From Marinicella meishanensis (GTDB taxonomy: Bacteria > Pseudomonadota > Gammaproteobacteria > Xanthomonadales > Marinicellaceae), in contig NZ_JAIOUV010000004.1 of NCBI RefSeq assembly GCF_019931145.1, positions 1 through 64,000 of the forward strand: a stretch of DNA of 64,000 bases, given 5' to 3'. Each line of letters opens with the position of its first letter. Within the stretch, counting starts at the first letter, position 1. The notes beneath the pieces were generated by a model. That model searched no databases. It was not told where the DNA came from and was given only the letters and a program-made list of their open reading frames with translations. The position numbers and the translations under genes are program-made. Below are positions 434-32,800 of the stretch, piece after piece.

Positions 434-1777
434 CTATTGAGTAAGCCCCTCCAATCGCTCCTCCAAAATCTCCAAGCCCAAATTTGCGGCGCCGCCGAGG
501 GACACGCGGGCTTGGATGGATTGTTCGGGGGTGATGGGGGTTTGGCCGTCTTTGGAGGCGAGGTAGGCGTCGCGGAAGCTTTGGCCTTGTTGGACTTGGG
601 CCAGGGCTTGGTCGGTGGCCATCATTGCGGGGGTGATGGCGGCTTGCATGATATCGGTATTGAACACCAGGGCTTCGAGCAGGCCAGGCAACAGGACGAA
701 GGTGTCGCGGGTGGCTTTGAGGCCTTTGATCAAGGGTTCTTTGGACAATTGCAGGTCGCGTTGGTAGCCGCTGGGCAGAGACAGCAGGGCATGCACCTGG
801 GCGGCGGCGCCGTCGACCACGGCTTGGCTGGCGCGCATGATTTCGACCACATCGGGGTTGTTCTTATTCGGCATGATGGAGGAGCCGGTGGTGTGGGTGT
901 TTTTCAGGCCGATGAAATTGAACTCCTGGGTCATGAACAGGCTCAGGTCCCAAGAAAAACGGCGCACATCAGACATCAAATAAGACAGCTGGTGCAGCAC
1001 CATCAGTTCGTACTTGCCACGCGAGTTTTGTGCGGCAACGGGATTGACCTGCACCCGCGACAGGCCCATGGCCGCGGCGGTCAATTCCCGGGCCAAGGGC
1101 AATGGCACACCAAAACCGGCGGCGGTGCCCAAGGGTGAGGCATCAAGCAGCTCGCCGAGTGCATTGAGCTGTTGCAGGTCATCGAGCAAGCCTTCGGCAA
1201 AGCCGAGCAACCACACCGCGACCGTGGTCGGCATCGCCCGTTGCAGATGGGTGTAACCTGGCATCAGGGTGTCCGTGTGGTCCTTGGCCAGGTTCAGCAA
1301 AGTGTCGATCACCGCCACCACTTCACCTTTCAGTCCGCCCATCTGGTCTTTCATGAACAACCGGAGACAGGTCAGCACCTGGTCGTTCCTTGAACGGCCG
1401 GTGTGGGCTTTCTTGCCCAGTTCGCCCAGTTGTTCGGTGAGGCAGAACTCGATGGCTGAATGGCCGTCTTCAAAGCGGCTGTCCAGCACAAACTCCTGCT
1501 TGATGAAAGCCTGTTGCAGTTGGGCCAAGGCGGCCTCGAATTGGCTCAAGTCAGCGGCGCTGATCAGCTCAATGGCGGCCAGGCCTTTGAGGTGGGCCAG
1601 CGTGCCCTGGATGTCATACAGGAATAAGGCTTGGTCCAGTTCGACGTCGGCCCCGGCCAGGTAAGCCATGACTTCCGGTGGCAGGGTGTTTTCTTGGGCT
1701 GACCACAGCACCGCATCGAGTGTTTGTGTGGTTTGGCTTGATTGGTTGGAGGTTTGAAGCGTTTTGGGGTTCATCAT
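434..1777 (-). CDS. argH: Argininosuccinate lyase
   Basis: This 447-residue enzyme catalyses the last step of arginine synthesis, splitting argininosuccinate into arginine and fumarate in the cytoplasm. The family motifs are present: GKKAHTGRSRNDQV near the N-terminus, MPGYTHLQRAMP, and the signature GSSIMPNKNNPD that carries the catalytic serine loop. The start is ATG 1777 (or 1774), because the argC stop overlaps it as ATGATGA; the frame upstream is just argC read in another phase. The sequence resembles the Xanthomonadales form rather than the E. coli form. It is the last gene of the arginine operon. Confidence 0.95.
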   Translation of the reverse strand: MMNPKTLQTSNQSSQTTQTLDAVLWSAQENTLPPEVMAYLAGADVELDQALFLYDIQGTLAHLKGLAAIELISAADLSQFEAALAQLQQAFIKQEFVLDSRFEDGHSAIEFCLTEQLGELGKKAHTGRSRNDQVLTCLRLFMKDQMGGLKGEVVAVIDTLLNLAKDHTDTLMPGYTHLQRAMPTTVAVWLLGFAEGLLDDLQQLNALGELLDASPLGTAAGFGVPLPLARELTAAAMGLSRVQVNPVAAQNSRGKYELMVLHQLSYLMSDVRRFSWDLSLFMTQEFNFIGLKNTHTTGSSIMPNKNNPDVVEIMRASQAVVDGAAAQVHALLSLPSGYQRDLQLSKEPLIKGLKATRDTFVLLPGLLEALVFNTDIMQAAITPAMMATDQALAQVQQGQSFRDAYLASKDGQTPITPEQSIQARVSLGGAANLGLEILEERLEGLTQ

Positions 1778-2751
1778 ATTATTCCGGTAAAGGCTTGGGT
1801 TTGGTGGCTGGCGGCCAAGGCCAGGTTCATGTTTTGCACGGCTTGGGTGGCCGCACCTTTGAGCAGGTTGTCCAGACAGACGTTCAACACCAGGTGGCCC
1901 GGCTCGGCCTGGGAGGCGGCAAAGCCACCGATGATCACACCGTGCTGTTGGGCGATTTGTTGGACCTCTGGGGCGGTGGTTTGCACCTGGATCAAGGGGC
2001 AATCGGCGTAGAACTGTTGGTAGATCTTGAACAGTTCTTCGGCGGTCAACGTCAAATTCAGTTTTCCAGACAAAGTCAGGTGGATGCCGCGAAAATGCGC
2101 CGCCACGTGGGGCATGAAACGGATCGGTCGCCCCAGCACCCGGGTCACTTCCCGCTCATGGGTGTGGTCGGTGGGCTTGTAGGCCAACAGGTTATCGGCC
2201 AAGCGCTTGGGGTTGTTTTTGTCCGAAGGCGTGGTGCCAGCCCCGCTGTAACCCGACACCCCAAAGGCGGTCGGCACATCGTGATCGTTGTCTTGCAGGT
2301 AGGGCAACAAGGGGTACCAACCCAATTGCAATCCGGTGGCATAACAACCGGGGTTGGCGATCAGGCGCGCGATGGCCAGGGACTGTTCACAGGTCTCGGG
2401 TTGACCATAGGTCCAATCATCATCAAAGCGGTGGTCGGCACTGAGGTCGATGATCAGGGTCCTCGGGGCCATTTGTTGCCACAGCGCCGTGTGCTGTTTG
2501 GCAAGGCCATCGGGCAAGGCCACAAACAACACGTCCAAGTCATGGTTTGGCAGGTCTGCAATTGGTCCATCGGCATACGCCAAATGCGGGTCGGAAAAGC
2601 CAGCCACCATCTGCTGCACCGGCTTACCGGCGTGTGAACGCGAGTAGGCGGCGACCAATTGCACCTGTGGGTGTGCATCCAGCAATTGAATCAACTCCAC
2701 CCCAACATGGCCGCGGGCGCCCAAGATGGCGGCTTTGATCGGCTCAGCCAT
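1774..2751 (-). CDS. argC: N-acetyl-gamma-glutamyl-phosphate reductase
   Basis: This 325-residue NADPH-dependent reductase converts N-acetylglutamyl phosphate to the semialdehyde, the third step of arginine synthesis. The nucleotide-binding glycine pattern GARGHVG is at residues 11-17. The active-site cysteine lies in NPGCYATG (Cys136). The ATG at 2751 overlaps the end of the upstream synthase/kinase gene by 8 bases, and its stop overlaps argH, so translation is probably coupled on both sides. Confidence 0.95.
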   Translation of the reverse strand: MAEPIKAAILGARGHVGVELIQLLDAHPQVQLVAAYSRSHAGKPVQQMVAGFSDPHLAYADGPIADLPNHDLDVLFVALPDGLAKQHTALWQQMAPRTLIIDLSADHRFDDDWTYGQPETCEQSLAIARLIANPGCYATGLQLGWYPLLPYLQDNDHDVPTAFGVSGYSGAGTTPSDKNNPKRLADNLLAYKPTDHTHEREVTRVLGRPIRFMPHVAAHFRGIHLTLSGKLNLTLTAEELFKIYQQFYADCPLIQVQTTAPEVQQIAQQHGVIIGGFAASQAEPGHLVLNVCLDNLLKGAATQAVQNMNLALAASHQTQAFTGII

Positions 2752-4159
2752 GACTTTGCTCCGGCAATGGGGTTGCTGCGCCTTCCCAGCCCGAATCTTC
2801 GGTGAAGGCCTGCTGCAAACAGTGTAAGGACTCCTGGGGGCTCAAACCACAGGCAAAGCCCACCCAATCGTTGTCTGTAGGCTTGGTTTTTACCTGTGCC
2901 GACTTCATGGACGCATCCGCTTGTTTGAAATACCAGGTGTTGATCTCGTTGTGGGCGCGGGAGCGCCAATACAGTTGTGGGTGGTTGTGCTTGATCTGCT
3001 GCCACAAGGTGGCGGCCAAGCCTTCACCGCGGGCTTCGCGGGTCACGGCAAATTTGTGCAGGTATGCATGGCCATGCTCGCCTGCGGTGATCAAAGCCGC
3101 GGCCCGGCCCGATTCGGCGATGTACACCTTCTTGATGGGCAGACCACCCAAGAATCCGGCTCGAAAGGTGCGGCCAAAGGCGTTTTGCAGAATGCCGACC
3201 AATTGCTGTTGCAAAAACGGTGTCAGGGTGTCGTGTTCGGTGATGCGTTCACCGAGGTTGATGAAGGTGCCAGCCCCTTGGTGGGTGAACAACTCACGGG
3301 CCAGGTTCTTACTCGACGTGATCGACACCGAATGGCCCGGGCCCATGGGCTCGAGCAATTCTTTGATCTGGGTCAGCTTCAGTTGCATGCCAGAGTGCAC
3401 CCAGTCTTGTTGCATCAACTGTTCGAAATCGTTGTGCAACTGAATCGCCGAAATGATCTGGTCATTGGCATCCAACACCCCACCGGTGGGGGTGACGAAG
3501 ATGATTTTGTGCGGATTGACCTGCCACACCAGTTCGCGGGTGGCGACATCGGCGTTGATGTTCAACACCTGGCCGCTGCTGGTTTCACCCAAACAACTGA
3601 GCACCGGAATGGCGCCGCTGTGCAAAGCCTGTTTGATCGGTGACAGGTGGATCTTCGATACCGAACCGACCAGGCCATACTCGGCCTCATCCAGGTATTC
3701 GCTTTCGAACACCCCGTGCACCACACCGCTGGCCCGCACGCCTTGTTGTTCCAAAGCCGCCACCAACTGTTGGTTGACCTGATACATGATCGGCCGAATC
3801 ACCGCCATGCTGGCCGCATCGGTGACGCGGATGCCGGCTTTTTTCTGACTGTCGATGCCGGCCGCCGCCAAACCCTGGTCCAGCTGCACCCCGGCACCGT
3901 GCACCACAATGGGGGCCAGGCCCAGATTGGCCAACAAGGCCAACGACTCGGCCAGCTGCTCCAATTCTTGGTCCAAAATGCCGCCGCCGACTTTGACCAC
4001 CGCAAAACGCATCTCGTCTTGACTGTGGTAGCGGTTCAAATAATGCCGCGCTTCCTGGCTGTTGGTCAGCTGCAACAGCGCGCTCTGTAAAATGGCCTGG
4101 TGGTTGGCCGCCTGACTCAGGTGTTTGGCCTGATTCAGTTGTTTAGAATTCGATTTCAT
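2744..4159 (-). CDS. argB: Bifunctional N-acetylglutamate kinase/synthase
   Basis: This is a 471-residue fusion. The N-terminal amino-acid-kinase domain (about 51-290, with VVKVGGG at 55-60) phosphorylates N-acetylglutamate. The C-terminal GNAT-type domain (about 295-440) makes N-acetylglutamate from acetyl-CoA and glutamate. Xanthomonadales carry this vertebrate-like NAGS-K arrangement in place of separate argA and argB. The start is ATG 4159: its ATGA overlaps the argE stop, and the longer open frame upstream lies inside argE. In the Xanthomonas homologue arginine feedback acts on this protein; that is family knowledge, not visible here. Confidence 0.9.
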   Translation of the reverse strand: MKSNSKQLNQAKHLSQAANHQAILQSALLQLTNSQEARHYLNRYHSQDEMRFAVVKVGGGILDQELEQLAESLALLANLGLAPIVVHGAGVQLDQGLAAAGIDSQKKAGIRVTDAASMAVIRPIMYQVNQQLVAALEQQGVRASGVVHGVFESEYLDEAEYGLVGSVSKIHLSPIKQALHSGAIPVLSCLGETSSGQVLNINADVATRELVWQVNPHKIIFVTPTGGVLDANDQIISAIQLHNDFEQLMQQDWVHSGMQLKLTQIKELLEPMGPGHSVSITSSKNLARELFTHQGAGTFINLGERITEHDTLTPFLQQQLVGILQNAFGRTFRAGFLGGLPIKKVYIAESGRAAALITAGEHGHAYLHKFAVTREARGEGLAATLWQQIKHNHPQLYWRSRAHNEINTWYFKQADASMKSAQVKTKPTDNDWVGFACGLSPQESLHCLQQAFTEDSGWEGAATPLPEQSHG

Positions 4160-5271
4160 GACAACAATCCTGCATACAATTGATAACATTGGTGTAACTG
4201 CGCCACAGCCACCCATTCGTCGGTGGTGTGCGCCTGGGCAATGTCGCCCGGTCCCAGCACCAGGGCCGGCACCCCGGCTTGGCTGAATAAGGCCGCCTCG
4301 GTCCAAAAATCCACCGGCGCACCGATGGGCAAGTCATGGGCCTGACAGTACTGCTGGGACTGCTCGGCCAAAGCCTGGTTTTCCGGCAAGGACGGCGCCA
4401 TCAGGGTGGTGTGCCATTGGGCTTCCAGGGCTTTTGCGATCAACTGCGCATAAACCTGTTCAGAGGACTGGCCGGCTGGCACCCGCACGCTGAAGCCCAA
4501 TTGGCATTGTTCGGCGATCATGTTGTTCTTCTCGCCGCCTTGGATGTAACCCAGGTTGAAACAAATACCGGCTGGGTTGTCTGCCGTTTGTTCGGTGGCC
4601 GCCATGGCAGTGGCTTGCTGCAGCCAAGCGCTGGCTTGGTGCACCGCATTGCCGGTCAAGGCCCCAACCGATGATGAATGACCACTGATGCCACTGAACT
4701 GACCATGGGCCGAGACGTATCCCCGGTGTTGCAACACCGCCTGACACCCGGTGGGCTCGGCCACCACCACCTGCTGAAACACCGACAGGTCGTGATCGAG
4801 GATGAACTGTTCCACACAGCAGGCGTTGGTGCCCTCCTCGTCGGTGGTGAACAACACCGCCATCGGCTGTTCAGCCGTCTCGGCCAAGGCCATCAAGCAG
4901 GCCGCTGCGCCCTTGATGTCGCACACACCGCGCCCGAAATAGCGACCATCGACTTGGGTCAAGGTGAATGGATCGTGGGTCCAACCACCGCTCACCGGCA
5001 CCGTGTCCAGGTGCACGTTGAACAGCACGTCTGGCTGACCGCGCAGCGCGTAAAACGCCACCCGACCCTGACCGAAATCGGCCATGGTCACGGTGAAGCC
5101 CTGGCCTTTGAAAAACGCTTCCAAGGCCACGAACAAGGGATCGGTGAAAGCGATTTCACGCGGTGGGTTGCAGGTGTCGTGACTGATCAGCATGGCCAGG
5201 TGTTGCTCAATTAAATGTTGAATCGGGTCCTGGGTCGATGTCAAATCGATGTTTTTGGCGGCTTGGTTCAT
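4156..5271 (-). CDS. argE: M20 deacetylase, probably N-acetyl-L-citrulline deacetylase
   Basis: This 371-residue zinc-dependent M20 peptidase-family deacylase has metal-ligand motifs HLDT (His87, Asp89), the CDIKGA motif (Asp118) and the TTDEEGT glutamates (145-146). Elsewhere ArgE removes acetate from N-acetylornithine. Because the operon encodes an N-acetylornithine carbamoyltransferase, the substrate here is most likely N-acetylcitrulline, as in Xanthomonas. That substrate choice is inferred from context. The gene overlaps argG (ATGA) upstream and argAB (ATGA) downstream. Confidence 0.88.
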   Translation of the reverse strand: MNQAAKNIDLTSTQDPIQHLIEQHLAMLISHDTCNPPREIAFTDPLFVALEAFFKGQGFTVTMADFGQGRVAFYALRGQPDVLFNVHLDTVPVSGGWTHDPFTLTQVDGRYFGRGVCDIKGAAACLMALAETAEQPMAVLFTTDEEGTNACCVEQFILDHDLSVFQQVVVAEPTGCQAVLQHRGYVSAHGQFSGISGHSSSVGALTGNAVHQASAWLQQATAMAATEQTADNPAGICFNLGYIQGGEKNNMIAEQCQLGFSVRVPAGQSSEQVYAQLIAKALEAQWHTTLMAPSLPENQALAEQSQQYCQAHDLPIGAPVDFWTEAALFSQAGVPALVLGPGDIAQAHTTDEWVAVAQLHQCYQLYAGLLS

Positions 5272-6470
5272 GAGGCCCTCCTGACTTGGTTGACCAGGGT
5301 CGCGCCCTGGCCGGTGAGTTTGATGAAGCCCAAGGCCTCTTCCGGGGTCCAGTCACAGGACTGCGCATAGACCGCTTGGGGCGCTTGGATGATGTACGGT
5401 GAATCCACCGCGGTGGCCAACAGGCTGCCACCGGCCGAAGACAGGGTAACGGTGCCAGTGACATGAGACTGGGAATGCTGCAAGTAGGCTTCCAGATCGA
5501 GCTTGTGCGGCTCATAGAAAAAGCCTTGATACACCAGCTCGCCCCAGCGTTCGGCCACTTGGGTGCGGAATTGGTTTTGGAATTTGGAGTTGACCAAGTC
5601 TTCCAAGGCCTTGTGCGCTTGCATCAGACCATCGATGCCGGGACACTCAAACACGATTCGCCCTTTCAAACCAACGCTGACATCACCGGTGTAAATGTGG
5701 CGGCCAATGCCACAAGCGGCCAACTGCTGGTTCAAGGTGTGCAACAACTCTGGACCGGCCATGGACTGGCCATTGAGCGCGGAGGCCACACCCTGTTCAA
5801 AGGTCAAGGTCCAGCTTTGGGGTTCGGCGGGCCAATCGGCTTTGGCTTTGACCCAGCAGGCACTTTCGGGTCCGGGTGGATCAAAGGTGTCAATCTCACT
5901 GCCCGAAATGGTCACGCCCAACATGTTTTCGTTGATCGAATACTTTTGGTGTTGCGCCGACATGGCAAAGCCAGCCTGCTGCAACACCGCCAATTCATGG
6001 TCCCGAACATTACCTTGGATCTCGGCTTGCAAATCCCGAATCGGGGCGATGATCTGGTAATCACCCAGCGAGTGCACGGTTTGATCAAAACGGAACTGAT
6101 CGTTGCCCATGGCGGTGCAACCGTGGGCAAAATACGGGGTGTTCAGCTGATCGCACAACTGTAAGCAAAGGCTGACAATCACATAGCGATCTGAACACAG
6201 CAAAGGGTATTCACCGCGCATGCGGGCTTTGGACCAGATCAGGGGTTTGACGAATTGGTCCCAGATGGCTTGTTGGGCATTGAGTGTGTGGTGCTCGGTT
6301 GCGCCCAAGGCCAGAGCCCGTTGTTCGATGGCATGCAGCTCGTCGGCGTCGATGCCGCCGGCGTCGACCAGCACGGTGTGCACTTGGCGGCCTTGTTGCA
6401 CCAAATGATGCAGGCAGTAAGAGGTGTCCAGTCCGCCGGAAAAGGCCAGTACAATGGTTTTGGATTTCAT
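5268..6470 (-). CDS. argG: Argininosuccinate synthase
   Basis: This 400-residue ATP-dependent ligase joins citrulline and aspartate. The N-terminal PP-loop AFSGGLDTS (residues 9-17) binds ATP, and the DRYV and HGCTAMGND stretches are also typical. The ATG at 6470 overlaps the argF' stop as ATGA, and the stop overlaps the argE start the same way. It sits second in the operon, between the carbamoyltransferase and the deacetylase that together supply citrulline. Confidence 0.94.
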   Translation of the reverse strand: MKSKTIVLAFSGGLDTSYCLHHLVQQGRQVHTVLVDAGGIDADELHAIEQRALALGATEHHTLNAQQAIWDQFVKPLIWSKARMRGEYPLLCSDRYVIVSLCLQLCDQLNTPYFAHGCTAMGNDQFRFDQTVHSLGDYQIIAPIRDLQAEIQGNVRDHELAVLQQAGFAMSAQHQKYSINENMLGVTISGSEIDTFDPPGPESACWVKAKADWPAEPQSWTLTFEQGVASALNGQSMAGPELLHTLNQQLAACGIGRHIYTGDVSVGLKGRIVFECPGIDGLMQAHKALEDLVNSKFQNQFRTQVAERWGELVYQGFFYEPHKLDLEAYLQHSQSHVTGTVTLSSAGGSLLATAVDSPYIIQAPQAVYAQSCDWTPEEALGFIKLTGQGATLVNQVRRAS

Positions 6471-7492
6471 GATGGTTCCTGTGTTTTGATTGATTGGTTC
6501 ATTAAATTCAGCATCAGCGCTTTTTGCACATGCAAGCGGTTTTCGGCCTCTTCCAGCGCCACGCAGTAGTCGGCATCCATCACCTCATCGGTGGCTTTGA
6601 CGTTGCGGCGCAAGGGCAAACAGTGGCTGAATTTGGCCTGGTTGGTCAGCGCCATCTTGGCGCCGTCAACGATGAAGTGTTTGAACGGTTCACGGTGTTT
6701 GAACTCGGTTTCCGGATCACCGTAAAACGGCAGTGCGCCCCAGCTCTTGGCATAAACAAAATCGGCGTCTTGGTAGGCCGCTTTGATGTCGTGGGTAACG
6801 GTGAAACTGGCGCCATGGGCAGCGCATTGGGCCTGGGCCGTGGCCAGGTAATGGTCATCCAGCAGGTAGTGTTCATTGGGACACAGCAAGGTCACATCCA
6901 TGCCAAACTTCGAGGTCATCAACAAAGCCGAGTTGGCCACCGCGGTGTTCAGGGGTTTGGGGTGGTAGGTCCAGGTCAGCAGGAATTTTTTCTGCTTGAC
7001 TTGTTTCAGGTGGTTTTTGATGGTCATCATCAGCGCCAACTCCTGGCAAGGGTGGACGATGGTTTCCATGTTGATCACCGGGACCGCAGCGTGGGCCGCC
7101 AGGGCTTTGATGGTGGCATCCTGGCGATCAATGGACCAATCCTGGAATTGGGGAAAGGCGCGAATGGCGATCATATCCACATAGGACGACAACACCCCGG
7201 CCACTTCGGCGATGTGTTCTTCCGCGGCGCCATCCATAACCACGCCTGGCTCGAACTCAATGCCCCAGGCGTCTTTACCGGGTTGTAACACGATGGCGGT
7301 GCCGCCCAGTTGTTGCATGCCCAACTCAAATGAAGTCCGCGTGCGCATCGAAGGGTTGAGGAACAGCAAGGCAATGGATTGGCCATGCAGGTGATTTTGG
7401 ATCGGCTGTTGTTTGAGGTAGCCGGCATCGGCCAACAAGCCCTCAAGGTCCGCTTGGGACCAGTCTTCGGTGCTGAGAAAGTGCTTTATCAT
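6467..7492 (-). CDS. argF': N-acetylornithine carbamoyltransferase
   Basis: This 341-residue transcarbamylase acts on N-acetylornithine and gives N-acetylcitrulline. The carbamoyl-phosphate motif SMRTRT is at residues 48-53. The acetyl-ornithine-type features are present: KDAWGIEF, the kink EEHIAEV with a glutamate at position 92 (Glu92 is the specificity residue in the X. campestris enzyme), WTYHPKPLNTAVANSAL, CLPLRRNVKATD and ENRLHVQKA. Ordinary ornithine carbamoyltransferases lack these. It is the first structural gene of the operon. An AGGAAA ribosome site precedes ATG 7492, and the attenuator ends about 40 bases upstream. Confidence 0.94.
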   Translation of the reverse strand: MIKHFLSTEDWSQADLEGLLADAGYLKQQPIQNHLHGQSIALLFLNPSMRTRTSFELGMQQLGGTAIVLQPGKDAWGIEFEPGVVMDGAAEEHIAEVAGVLSSYVDMIAIRAFPQFQDWSIDRQDATIKALAAHAAVPVINMETIVHPCQELALMMTIKNHLKQVKQKKFLLTWTYHPKPLNTAVANSALLMTSKFGMDVTLLCPNEHYLLDDHYLATAQAQCAAHGASFTVTHDIKAAYQDADFVYAKSWGALPFYGDPETEFKHREPFKHFIVDGAKMALTNQAKFSHCLPLRRNVKATDEVMDADYCVALEEAENRLHVQKALMLNLMNQSIKTQEPS

Positions 7493-7530: not shown

Positions 7531-7562
7531 TTAAAAAACCCGGCTCTTTGGCCGGGTTTTTA
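7531..7562 (-). terminator. Intrinsic attenuator terminator before argF'
   Basis: Read on the minus strand, the arms CCCGGC and GCCGGG (7556-7551 and 7544-7539) enclose the loop CAAAGA. The stem is extended by an A-run paired with a U-run, and U-rich sequence follows directly. This is a canonical Rho-independent terminator. It lies between a short arginine-rich leader frame and argF', where it would stop transcription of the whole operon. Confidence 0.88.
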
Positions 7563-7602
7563 AAATTCTTGTTTTACTGAATCACACGCCTAACCAAAGA
7601 GC
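7543..7602 (-). promoter_or_regulatory. Antiterminator pairing of the arginine attenuator
   Basis: The leader segment GCUCUUUGG (7602-7594) is perfectly complementary over 9 bases to CCAAAGAGC (7551-7543), which forms the loop and part of both arms of the terminator. If these pair, the terminator cannot form. The first strand lies inside the last codons of the leader peptide, so a ribosome that reaches the leader stop codon would mask it and allow termination, while a ribosome stalled upstream on arginine codons would leave it free. Confidence 0.75.
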
Positions 7603-7703
7603 TCCATACGCTTTACCGGACGGCGACGACGAACAACCACAGCACTGTTCACAGTGTTGTTTTGAATGGATTTCAGGTTTTGTTCGAAGTTGTGTTTCAT
7701 CAT
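7590..7703 (-). CDS. Arginine leader peptide (attenuator)
   Basis: This 37-codon frame starts at ATG 7703 (a second ATG follows at 7700) and ends at TAG 7592-7590. It contains four consecutive arginine codons at 25-28 (CGT CGT CGC CGT) and another at 32, in the context AVVVRRRRPVKRMELFG. It lies about 100 bases upstream of argF', immediately before an intrinsic terminator. A CACTG-TGAA-CAGTG hairpin (7656-7643) lies just before the arginine run and could serve as a pause site. The ribosome site is weak. The composition and position match amino-acid operon leader peptides; the gene was read directly from the sequence because it is very short. Confidence 0.8.
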   Translation of the reverse strand: MMKHNFEQNLKSIQNNTVNSAVVVRRRRPVKRMELFG

Positions 7704-7725
7704 GTTTTTGTGTTCACTTGGGCGT

Positions 7726-7755: not shown

Positions 7756-7859
7756 ATGTTTTTTTGTTATGGGGGTGTTTTTTTCGTTGGGGTCTTACAT
7801 ATGAGATCAGCGTTAATGATCTTCATCCTTGCATCTGAGATGTTATCTGCGTGTCATGT

Positions 7860-8130
7860 TGTAGATTCCTGCTTGTGCAGGAATGACGTATGAGAAGGAA
7901 CTTGCCCTTGTGAACCCATAAAGAGAAAGAACCCGTCATTCCGACCGAGTGAAACGAGTGGAGAAATTTCATTAAGCATGCACCTTACTCAGACAGTTAT
8001 ACATATTATTGGTCATATCCCTCGCCTCCATGGACGGAGGTGTGCCGTGTGAGCAGGACGCTGAAACGGCCGCCACATGGATGTGGGTGTGTCGTGCAAA
8101 TTTGGAATGACAACGGCCGACTGCACCCGG
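7860..8130. repeat. Intergenic cluster of dispersed repeats
   Basis: The 450-base gap between the arginine leader and the GNAT gene holds no convincing gene. It contains a perfect hairpin ATTCCTGC-TTGT-GCAGGAAT (7865-7884), the element CGTCATTCCGACCGAGTGAA continuing to about 7970, and a weaker GGAATGACAACGGCC at about 8105. Elements beginning GTCATTCC are scattered in many bacterial genomes. These may be transcription-end structures. Confidence 0.5.
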
Positions 8131-29850: not shown

Positions 29851-32800
29851 TCAGTCGTCTTCAGGCGGAATCAAGTTGATCAACGGCAGGTTGCTGCGGC
29901 TCCAATTGACGCCCTCGTCGGTGACGTTGTATTGGTTGAGGGTGCCGTCCACTTGGCCGTTCAGGCTCAGGCTGATGTCGCCGACAATGCGGCCGGGGGC
30001 ACCCACCGCCGGACAACTCGGACAGAAGGTGTTGAAGTAGTAGGCGTCCATGGGGCTGCTGTCATTGGGGCCACTGGCGATGGTCCAATACGGCTGACCG
30101 GCATCGGTGTACAGGTAGTTGATCACCACCCGGGCATCACCCAAGGTACCGACCGATTGTCCCCAACCACCCTCATCGGGGGTGAAAAACAGACCGGTGT
30201 GTAAATTCGGTGTGTCATCAGGTCCGTACTGGAAAAATTCCAATTTTTCAGCACTCAAGCGGCCATTGATTTCCCGCACCTGAATGGCGTTCGTGGCATC
30301 AATAAAGCTGGTGTTGGACCAACCCACGGTGTCGAAGGTCAATTGGCCCTGGCCAAAGCCACCGGGCACTTGATAGCGGGTGATGTTATTGAAATATTGG
30401 TTGTGTTTGGCATCGGCGTCATTGGCCAAATACCACACCGGTTCGCCATCGGCTTCGCCAGTGTAGAACAGGTAGACCAGCGAACTTTGATCCAAGGTGT
30501 ACCAATCGAAGCCGTTGCCGCCGCGATCCGGGTTCCACCACAAGCCACGCCGTGGTCTGAGGTCGTTGCTGGCCACGCTGTCGCTGTTGCCCACGCCACA
30601 ACTGGTGACCACGCTGCATTGGCCGTTGTTGCCAATGGTTTGGCTGAAGATGTTGCTGGTCCCGGCATTGAAACCTTCGTCATACACCGCCGCCTGCAGA
30701 TCAATGCCAATTTGGCTGCCGCATTGGGCGTCTTCGGTGACCGCAAAATGCAAGCTGCGGTTTTGGGTTTGGGTCACCGGCATGTTGCCCAATCCAATCA
30801 CCGGGTTTTCGATGACCATGAAAACACTGCCGCTGGGCGCCGGTTGGAAATCGCGGTTGTATACACAATAAGCCACCGTGGCATTGACCGCCGCGCCGTC
30901 ATCACAGGCGGCACTGATGCCGTCCGATCCGGTGGTGTTTTGGATACCAACTGTGGCGCCTCCACCATTGATGTTGTTGCCGGCATATTGAAACACCCAC
31001 TGGGAAGTTTCGGGGTACAAAATGGCCTGCACGTCGATGTCTTCAACGATTGCGGAATTGAACAAATCCGCGCCTTGCCACAAAAACACCTCACACGGCT
31101 GATCCACCCCGGTGTCCGCGGGGCGCGGGCAGTTGTCAAAGTACTGGTGGTAAAACACCGAATCTTTCAGGTCATCATGCAAAGGATAAATCCGCGCACC
31201 TTCATCATCCTGGTTGGGTGCATCCGGTAACGGACAATCGTTGTCCCAATCACCGCCATTGGCATTGATTGAGGTGCTGAGATAACCGTTGCTGGACGCC
31301 CGCAATTGGCTGATGCTTTGGCCGTAGTGATCAAAGCTTTGGGTCAATTGGATCAAAGTCGAACCATCGTCATCAGCCGGAAAATCATCATTGGCCGGCT
31401 CCCATTGCAACACGGTGCCGGTGCTGGTGATGTCTATGAAGGTGCGGGCACAATTATCCACCGTGTTGCCATAGGCATCGCTGGGCAGGGCTTCATCTTC
31501 AAAGCGCTGTTTGCCCAAGGCCAGGTAGGCATCGGTGGCACTGCGGGCACCCACATTTTGCGCCAGCAGCACGGTCGACCACCGTTCACCCGGGTCAATC
31601 ACGCTGTTGTTGTTGCCACAAACCTGATCCAAATTTTCACGGATGTTGACCACGTTTTGCAGCTGGATGTCTGGGGCAGCCACCACCAAGGCCTGGTTGG
31701 TGCTGCGGCCACAGCCCGATGAGTCACGCACCAAAAGTTTGATGTCGCCCACAAACTCCTGGTTGAAGCGCACCTCAAAATCGGTACCGGTGCCATCGAT
31801 GATGCCATCCGCTCCCAAATCCCATTGGTAGATATAACCTCCGGTGCCACCGGAAACCTGTGAACTGAAGTTGATCAACTCTCCCACTTCACCACCACTG
31901 ACTTGACTGATGGCCACCGACGGCGCCAAACAACCTTCGTATCCAGCCAGGGTTTCTGCACCGGTGTTGTCCGGGTCCAACCAATCGGACAAGCGGGACT
32001 GGGCGTCACTGCCAAAATCCCAGGCAAAGAACAGGCGCCCATAGCTGTCGGTCACCGGCACATCACAAGTTTCTGCCACGGTGCCAAAATGTAAAGTGCC
32101 AATCAGCAAGCCTTCGTCGGTCCACAGTCCACTGCCCGAAGACCCAATCTCGGTGGTCCCCTCGTCCCACTCATCAATGGTGATGTGCGAATCCGTCACA
32201 CCACCATTGGGCGGCGTGGTGATGAACAACTGGTTGTTTTCAATGGCAATGCGTTTGGCATGGCTTAAAGGATGGTGGACGGAAAAAGCAAAATCCGGGG
32301 CGATGTCGCGGCGGTCCCAGCCGGTGTAATGGGTGCCATAAGCGGCATCGGGGATTTCGTTCAGACGCACCAAAGCAAAATCACTGGCGGCGTCGTTGGC
32401 TACGTGGGCCGCACCCGACTGGGTGTCGTTGAAGCCTTCCAACGAGATGACGGTGCCACTCAAGGCAGAACCAGGCGTTCGGCAGGTGGCCGATTGGTAA
32501 TTCCACCAAATGTTCATCGAAGCGGCGATGGCATCCAATTGTGCTTGGTTATTGGCCCTTTCAAAACCACAGTGGTTACCGGTCAAAAAATACGGGGTGG
32601 CATCCTCGGCAGTGTTGTTGATCAGTTGACCTGTACAGAAGCTCATTCCTTGTATTGGATCTAAAAAACTGTATCGGGCCACTGAGTTGATCTGTGTGCG
32701 CCATGGATTGCCTTCATCACAATTGACGTCGATGTTGCATTCCAAGCTTTTGTTGCCGATGCCGTTGACCGGCTGTTCCCAGAATTTGTAAAAGCCGCGG

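Follow-up and report, generated by a model that had tools for sequence, protein, structure and literature searches.

The first 64,000 nucleotides of contig NZ_JAIOUV010000004.1 of Marinicella meishanensis (NCBI RefSeq assembly GCF_019931145.1; hereafter the window) carry an arginine biosynthesis operon on the minus strand. Its gene order is argF'-G-E'-B-C-H, and it begins at 7492 with argF', which encodes N-acetylornithine carbamoyltransferase. Directly upstream of argF' lies what is very probably a ribosome-mediated attenuator of transcription. It would sense charged tRNA-Arg and regulate the operon in bacteria that have no ArgR. This reading is carried by the anatomy of the leader, its conservation in relatives, the complementarity of its parts, the conservation of a leader peptide core at the protein level in four families, and computed folding.

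Anatomy of the argF' leader

A leader peptide open reading frame (ORF) of 37 codons, MMKHNFEQNLKSIQNNTVNSAVVVRRRRPVKRMELFG, lies at 7590..7703 on the minus strand and ends in TAG; all eight of the same-genus regions hold a comparable ORF. A preliminary description, made from the letters of the window alone, had pointed to four consecutive Arg codons in this frame and a fifth four codons further on, and these are Arg25–Arg28 (CGT CGT CGC CGT, 7620..7631), which are followed by Pro, and Arg32 (7610-7608). The last leader codons contain the putative antiterminator strand GCUCUUUGG (GCTCTTTGG in the DNA; 7602-7594, minus strand), hereafter S2. Its exact nine-base complement, S3 (CCAAAGAGC, 7551-7543), spans the whole six-base loop of the next hairpin, together with one flanking base from its 5′ arm and two from its 3′ arm. 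This hairpin, AAAACCCGGC-CAAAGA-GCCGGGTTTT at 7560-7535 with a T tract at 7538-7533, is a strong intrinsic terminator. Its computed energy is −15.8 kcal/mol, and that of the S2:S3 duplex alone is −13.1 kcal/mol. The S2 segment, the perfect nine-base pairing to the loop and arms, and the terminator with its U-run had all been proposed beforehand and are borne out.

A further hairpin, here called 1:2, is predicted at 7587..7625; it is formed by CGCC and CCGG, located within and behind the Arg codons, and their partners GGCG and UUGG. It masks S2 in the computed fold of the untranslated full-length leader. The 221-nt leader is more stable than shuffled sequences (z −2.48; 4 of 200 shuffles fold as well). 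A simple terminator scan under its own rule did not list the hairpin at 7560-7535; folding did reveal it. By eye, a putative sigma-70 promoter can be read in the window and in the Marinicella regions, with a −35 element TTGCCA at 7755-7750, a TG at 7734-7733 and a −10 element TACTTT at 7731-7726 on the minus strand, from which we would guess a transcription start near 7719. A promoter scan under its own rule returned none.

Conservation across the order

An ORF with an Arg cluster precedes three of the 21 strong terminators in the window (both strands, the attenuator included), so the pattern is not rare in a single sequence and the comparative evidence has to carry the case. The other two such terminators are at 31856 and 41731 on the minus strand. 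We drew 250 genomes from the order, 235 of which have a match to argF', a few of them weak. Upstream regions were read at 30 loci, in a further 120 genomes and in 25 of another 28, three fragmentary ones (G055, G177 and G026) having been dropped. This gave 175 regions, and the removal of one that was too short (G152) left 174, of which 168 lie outside the family f11 and six within it. A region was counted as positive when a strong terminator lay at most 190 nt from the gene start and an ORF with at least three Arg in five codons stood before it; poor automatic picks, such as a wrong ORF in G025 and an unlikely hairpin in G082, were kept in the counts.

Under this rule, 148 of the 168 regions outside f11 have a strong terminator and 144 have an Arg-cluster ORF before it. 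All eight Marinicella regions keep an Arg run of at least three, the terminator and the complementarity, and the attenuator is likewise found in all ten regions of the sister genus and in all 47 of f12, a family assigned to the Rhodanobacteraceae through contigs in common with named loci. The remaining families give 20/21 (f2), 3/3 (f3), 7/7 (f4), 3/3 (f5), 0/1 (f6), 2/2 (f7), 29/30 (f8), 14/35 (f9, Wenzhouxiangella-type) and 1/1 (f10). In the single f8 miss (G127), an Arg leader before a terminator is present farther upstream. Of the 21 f9 regions without an Arg leader (e.g. L037, L048, L056 and L217), four keep a strong terminator near argF' and the rest have neither.

Among 80 named loci, a sample that overlaps the first, 69 have the attenuator, two have the terminator only and nine have no terminator. 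The positive loci include Dyella, Rhodanobacter, Frateuria, Luteibacter, Dokdonella and Pseudoxanthomonas; in Lysobacter defluvii (L263) leader and terminator are present and the pairing is poor. Three Kangiella loci (another order) and one Woeseiaceae metagenome-assembled genome (MAG) are also positive. Thirty further f2 and f12 regions were read with a wider search stretch, and 28 were positive by reading (27 clear, one weak but real); the weak match in G249 is a coding ORF and hence false, and L373 was wrongly cut. Searching the M. meishanensis genome for further copies of the leader gave none below E 0.1 apart from a 29-base match to a plain terminator.

These counts bear on the simplest alternative, in which the ordinary terminator of the upstream gene happens to follow an Arg-rich ORF. 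Chance does produce such ORFs, as at the two other window terminators, and at least four Arg in eight codons occur in 10% of 2960 shuffles. The conservation across the order contradicts this explanation, and a strong terminator stands at that place in none of the 25 ornithine carbamoyltransferase-like genes examined elsewhere in Gammaproteobacteria. We have rejected it on this comparative evidence and give it practically no credence.

Two loci of uncertain standing were also noted. On contig L225, labelled as a Gemmatimonadetes MAG, argF' has a similar Arg leader and terminator; horizontal transfer or a mis-binned contig are both possible. In L255 (SAR86), upstream of 1501, the argF' leader region contains a terminator as well as a matching segment ahead of it, and its short ORF, MSSQNNKNLRGQLI, has a single Arg codon; this is perhaps a reduced attenuator.

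Complementarity and spacing

Pairing between the leader end and the 5′ arm plus loop of the terminator was scored as a weight, which reached at least 15 in 124 of the 144 positive regions and in 65 of the 69 positive named loci. Controls reached this weight less often: 40.5% of 2914 pairs swapped across families did so, as did 26% of 720 leader ends after shuffling and 29% of 144 segments taken from farther upstream. Swaps within families scored like true pairs (86.9% of 666), so the evidence from complementarity lies between families. In a matrix of 11 families, with at most 12 genomes each, the diagonal mean was 18.8 vs 14.9 after permutation, and none of 20000 permutations was as high.

Different lineages have different pairing solutions. 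These are GGCCGGGU/ACCCGGCC in f12, GCUGGGU/ACCCAGC in most of f2 and f8 and also in f5 and f7, CCAGG/CCUGG or GCCGGG/CCCGGC in the sister genus, and UCUUUGG/CCAAAGA in Marinicella. The target is the 5′ arm of the terminator in most lineages, and the loop with neighbouring arm bases in Marinicella. At a position occupied by A or G, pairing is Watson-Crick in 107 of the 119 regions that have both motifs, G-U in six and mismatched in six; 25 regions lack one of the motifs. The distance from the end of the last cluster Arg codon to S2 has a median of 17 nt (10–90% range 12–18; n = 125 regions with a weight of at least 15), and S2 ends near the leader stop codon. With this spacing, S2 would be left free by a ribosome held up at the Arg cluster and covered by one at the stop codon.

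The leader peptide and its codons

The sequence MTSRARR occurs in 76 of 77 Arg leaders of f2, f3, f4 and f12. The exception is G025, where the script picked the wrong ORF; the right frame, read by eye, has MTSRARR. The core can be extended to AxGMTSRARR, with Ala three positions before Met in 76/76 and Gly one position before Met in 75/76. Across 75 distinct leaders of these families, entropy at codon positions 1, 2 and 3 of the core is 0.12, 0.02 and 0.93 bits, and 0.17, 0.03 and 1.04 bits when the Arg codons are left out; the corresponding values are 1.5, 1.4 and 1.3 for upstream codons and 1.7, 1.6 and 1.4 for downstream codons. Choosing leaders by the motif fixes the motif residues, yet that choice excluded only one of the 77. 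The pattern points to selection on the protein sequence and thus to translation of the ORF in f2, f3, f4 and f12, where residues that are not needed for counting Arg appear to be kept. In Marinicella, where eight regions only were available, the entropy of the cluster codons is 0.18, 0.18 and 0.41.

Two codons of the core hardly vary: Ser is TCG and the last Arg is CGA, in 73 of 76 leaders each. They can pair with each other (72, 75 and 72 of 75 leaders for the three base pairs, never by compensation), so the codons may also be fixed for a reason at the RNA level. A longer local hairpin at the core fails in at least 21 of 75 leaders at three of five pairs.

A conserved core raises the alternative that the nascent peptide AxGMTSRARRP arrests the ribosome, with arginine or another ligand as effector, rather than starvation for a codon. 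The low entropy of the core residues other than Arg, in four families, speaks for this, as does the Pro directly after the Arg cluster in 94 of 144 leaders. The leaders of Marinicella, f8, f9 and Kangiella, however, keep the Arg cluster without the core, and a stall at high arginine would turn the operon on, which is the wrong direction for a biosynthetic pathway. We regard peptide arrest as improbable and favour codon starvation.

Codon choice within the cluster is narrow. Among 490 cluster Arg codons, counted raw and with kinship among the genomes ignored, there are 180 CGC, 163 CGA and 140 CGU, which leaves seven others (483/490 are CGU, CGC or CGA). The codon usage of argF', taken from those families that provide a background, predicts about 4% CGA and about 24% for CGG, AGA and AGG together. 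The Marinicella clusters use CGT and CGC only (32 of 32 codons in eight regions, no CGA), and CGA makes up 9 of 40 cluster codons in the sister genus. In most bacteria a single tRNA with the anticodon ICG decodes CGU, CGC and CGA (PMC3711424). The Arg anticodons found were ACG, TCT, CCG and CCT in a Rhodanobacteraceae genome (G184; scan of 20 of the 30 tRNA loci retrieved, out of 46 places in total) and ACG, TCG, TCT and CCT in the genome of the window (30 loci scanned, 43 places in all). The TCG anticodon suggests that CGA probably has its own tRNA in M. meishanensis. These counts fit a cluster that would mainly sense one isoacceptor, tRNA-Arg(ACG), read as ICG.

Computed folding and the proposed switch

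Folding was computed with ViennaRNA, and the front edge of a stalled ribosome was set at the first base of the A site +12. In the full Marinicella leader without a ribosome, the hairpin between the Arg-codon region and S2 forms and the terminator has a probability of 1.0. A ribosome placed at the stop codon or at Arg32 leaves this value at 1.0, whereas stalls at Arg25 and Arg28 lower it at equilibrium to 0.54 and 0.45, respectively. When the RNA extends to 7543 only, so that the 3′ arm has not been made, S2:S3 has a probability of about 1 with a stalled ribosome. The preliminary description had held that a stall on Arg25–28 frees S2 and that a ribosome at the UAG covers it, and the end states of folding are as expected from that geometry.

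For stalling, the order of folding and the response to arginine or tRNA charging, we infer the following course. When charged tRNA-Arg is ample, the ribosome would reach the stop codon and cover S2, and the terminator would form. When it is short, the ribosome would stall at the Arg codons, some 17 nt upstream of S2, and cover the RNA that would otherwise mask S2. The freed S2 could then pair with S3 before the 3′ arm of the terminator is made, and polymerase would read into argF'. Without translation, S2 should be masked by the 1:2 hairpin, and transcription should terminate.

The Xoo5 transcript of Xanthomonas

Searches of eight relatives against Rfam placed a known transcript at the leader in two of them. 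The family RF02242, 'sRNA Xoo5', matches the leader of Pseudoxanthomonas taiwanensis (L259) with 109.8 bits and that of L387 (f2) with 103.7 bits. Frateuria terrea (L237) scores 35.2 bits, below the gathering cut-off of 50, and the window gives no match to RF02242 up to E 5. PMC3039613 places sRNA-Xoo5 of Xanthomonas oryzae between the genes PXO_00354 and PXO_00353; its 5′ end was determined by rapid amplification of cDNA ends (RACE), its length is given as 124 nt, and two cDNA clones are listed. Northern blots there gave bands of about 130 and about 100 nt, both forms being present early in growth and the short form only later. PXO_00353 is N-acetylornithine carbamoyltransferase and PXO_00352 argininosuccinate synthase (PMC3039613, Table 4). 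The 124-position consensus of the Rfam model, read by eye, has AUG from its third base and holds the leader ORF; the ORF of L387 was translated, and the leader ORF of L259 is covered by the match. Xoo5 is the argF' leader of the Xanthomonadaceae. If the RACE end in the published account is the first base of the model, transcription would start 2 nt before the leader AUG. In the part of its description that is accessible, Xoo5 appears as a small non-coding RNA, and no leader ORF, terminator or link to arginine is named for it there.

Xoo5 could accordingly be an independent small RNA (sRNA) that acts in trans, as it is filed in Rfam, with the terminator just ending it and argF' being controlled separately. 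The short RNA found by 5′ RACE and Northern blotting, with forms that change with growth phase (PMC3039613), would fit this, and trans action of RNAs derived from 5′ untranslated regions is discussed for carA of Pseudomonas syringae in PMC4997734. Against it, the leader ORF begins at the third consensus base, its codon periodicity and Arg cluster are kept, and its end pairs with the terminator before argF'. The scanned loci of Marinicella, Kangiella and Woeseiaceae, moreover, share the design and score below the Xoo5 cut-off. We consider a separate trans-acting sRNA very improbable and retain the attenuator as the explanation of the leader.

A composite role in the Xanthomonadaceae, the Rhodanobacteraceae and two related families is a tentative possibility that we put forward with some doubt. 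Here the core AxGMTSRARRP might act as a sensor or effector, through a pause of the nascent chain at Arg-Arg-Pro or as a peptide in trans. The control codons might be chosen for tRNA-Arg(ACG), with CGA, a poorly used codon, favoured wherever this tRNA has to decode it, and Xoo5 might be what is released from a regulator of arginine synthesis that works both as RNA and as peptide.

As a separate observation, deletion of sRNA-Xoo1 of X. oryzae, which lies beside thiC, is reported to lower the protein levels of argininosuccinate synthase and N-acetylornithine carbamoyltransferase, whose genes come first and second downstream of the Xoo5 leader (PMC3039613, Table 4).

Observations that weigh against attenuation

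Several results count against an attenuator. S2:S3 has a probability of about 1 also in the absence of any ribosome when the RNA extends to 7543 only, so the untranslated off state needs the 1:2 hairpin to form first, or refolding. In the same truncated RNA the 1:2 hairpin is not dominant, and consensus folding of f12, f2, f8 and f9 gave no recognisable shared protector hairpin. With a stalled ribosome at equilibrium, the terminator keeps a mean probability of 0.87 over the 144 relatives (0.44 in the Marinicella genus); the switch must therefore rely on the order of folding, and kinetic capture is assumed. The free terminator arm is often occupied in shuffled leaders too (0.69 vs 0.97 in real ones), and occupancy before the 3′ arm is made does not discriminate, as shuffles and the untranslated window RNA show the same. 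For Xoo5, the 3′ end of the clone falls a few bases short of the terminator, and the Northern bands are shorter than the full terminated leader.

The comparison of relatives also has its exceptions. Under the rule given above, 24 of the 168 regions lack the feature, and 21 of these are in f9. At the position that switches between A-U and G-C, a tree of 80 tips has two co-changes on the same branch (of five and six changes), a weak result with P 0.078. The refuting case named in the preliminary description, related genomes with argF' in place and no conserved Arg codons or terminator, was nevertheless decided in favour of the attenuator, as 144 of the 168 regions keep both.

ArgR and other known regulators

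Repression by ArgR at ARG boxes and Arg T-boxes are known forms of control of arginine genes. They serve the same physiological task, and T-boxes also read tRNA charging; unlike in these systems, the genome of the window has no match to ArgR and the leader no match to a T-box. ArgR was searched with PF02863, a model of the C-terminal domain only, which gave no match in the M. meishanensis genome (98% complete), and ArgR control of the operon was rejected on this result. Within the order, ArgR was found in 8 of the 250 genomes, all of them among the nine sampled f11 genomes. The attenuator and a strong terminator are absent from all six f11 argF regions read. The f11 argF is a distant relative (35–41% identity in six genomes), and what precedes it reads as the coding end of a putative argD. 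Attenuator and ArgR are mutually exclusive within our sample. The f9 genomes in the sample have no ArgR match, including those without the attenuator.

A T-box or riboswitch was rejected, as no Rfam match to either was found; for the T-box this covers the window region up to E 5 and the eight relatives at the gathering cut-off. Trp_leader and Phe_leader reach 20.7 and 18.9 bits in the window, far below their cut-offs of 41 and 55. PMC1262725 mentions T-box regulation of arginine genes.

Attenuators are established in proteobacteria for the his, thr, leu, ilv, trp and phe operons; those of amino-acid operons are reportedly covered by Vitreschak (2004). The argF' leader shares with them a run of cognate codons in a leader ORF, an antiterminator competing with a terminator, and a cognate biosynthetic operon downstream. 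It differs in its amino acid, in the conserved non-control peptide core of four families, in its near-restriction to CGU, CGC and CGA, and, in Marinicella, in an antiterminator that takes the loop of the terminator, not its 5′ arm. The M. meishanensis genome also has a His leader ORF, MNNMTQANNHHHHPTDTSGRRC, with a terminator directly before hisG (L294, 1189-1257), a second attenuator of the same layout.

Two leaders with a connection to arginine deserve comparison. In the speF leader of Salmonella, orf34 (speFL) has two consecutive Arg codons at which low arginine causes a pause and a change of mRNA structure, and Lys codons abolish this (PMC6386406). As described there, speF belongs to polyamine synthesis, and its control involves Rho termination, masking of the ribosome-binding site and RNase G decay, and not an intrinsic terminator ahead of genes for arginine synthesis; it made no difference there whether the Arg codons were rare or frequent, unlike the preference for CGU, CGC and CGA seen here. 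The carA gene of Pseudomonas aeruginosa, which contributes to arginine synthesis as well, is likewise preceded by a leader peptide, and attenuation has been proposed for it. In PMC4997734 that attenuation is described as pyrimidine control, and arginine acts at the transcriptional level. PMC7247131 concerns ribosomal-protein leaders. The preliminary description knew of no attenuator for arginine, and we likewise found no attenuator of an arginine operon in bacteria in the open-access full-text literature searched, which most subscription papers lie outside.

The operon and its surroundings

All six genes are on the minus strand, and scores refer to NCBIfam models. The first gene, argF' (6467..7492), matches NF003384 with 528.8 bits (cut-off 288). 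It is followed by argG (argininosuccinate synthase, 5268..6470), whose best match, NF003385 at 535.9 bits, stays under the cut-off of 603, and by argE' (acetylornithine deacetylase, 4156..5271; NF006439, 365.6 bits, cut-off 345). The argB-type acetylglutamate kinase (2744..4306, start provisional; NF003387, 505.9 bits, cut-off 426) is a long form, presumably with a fused synthase part. The operon continues with argC (N-acetyl-gamma-glutamyl-phosphate reductase, 1774..2751; TIGR01850, 265.1 bits, cut-off 233.6) and argH (argininosuccinate lyase, 434..1777; TIGR00838, 303.2 bits, cut-off 279.5), the start of which is provisional as its ORF extends upstream to 2002. Upstream of the putative promoter, at 7850-7980 on the minus strand, are palindromic pieces such as GGAATGACG and CGTCATTCCTGCACAAGCAGGAATC, which we take to resemble repetitive extragenic palindromic (REP)-type repeats. 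Within the genus, 6 of 18 genomes have no argF' match (G036, G043, G071, G098, G133 and G157) and three have weak matches only (G050, G093 and G113); argF' seems to have been lost in part of Marinicella.

Implications

Leader-peptide attenuators are a known class, to which arginine appears to be a new addition, in a form that by its sequence is conserved through most of the order and found beyond it. Arginine would thereby join the amino acids whose biosynthetic operon has a leader-peptide attenuator, and the 'sRNA' Xoo5 of Rfam can be re-read as a translated attenuator leader. The choice of codons in the cluster makes sensing of a single isoacceptor cleanly testable. For the Lysobacterales without ArgR, the attenuator offers an answer to how arginine synthesis could be controlled.
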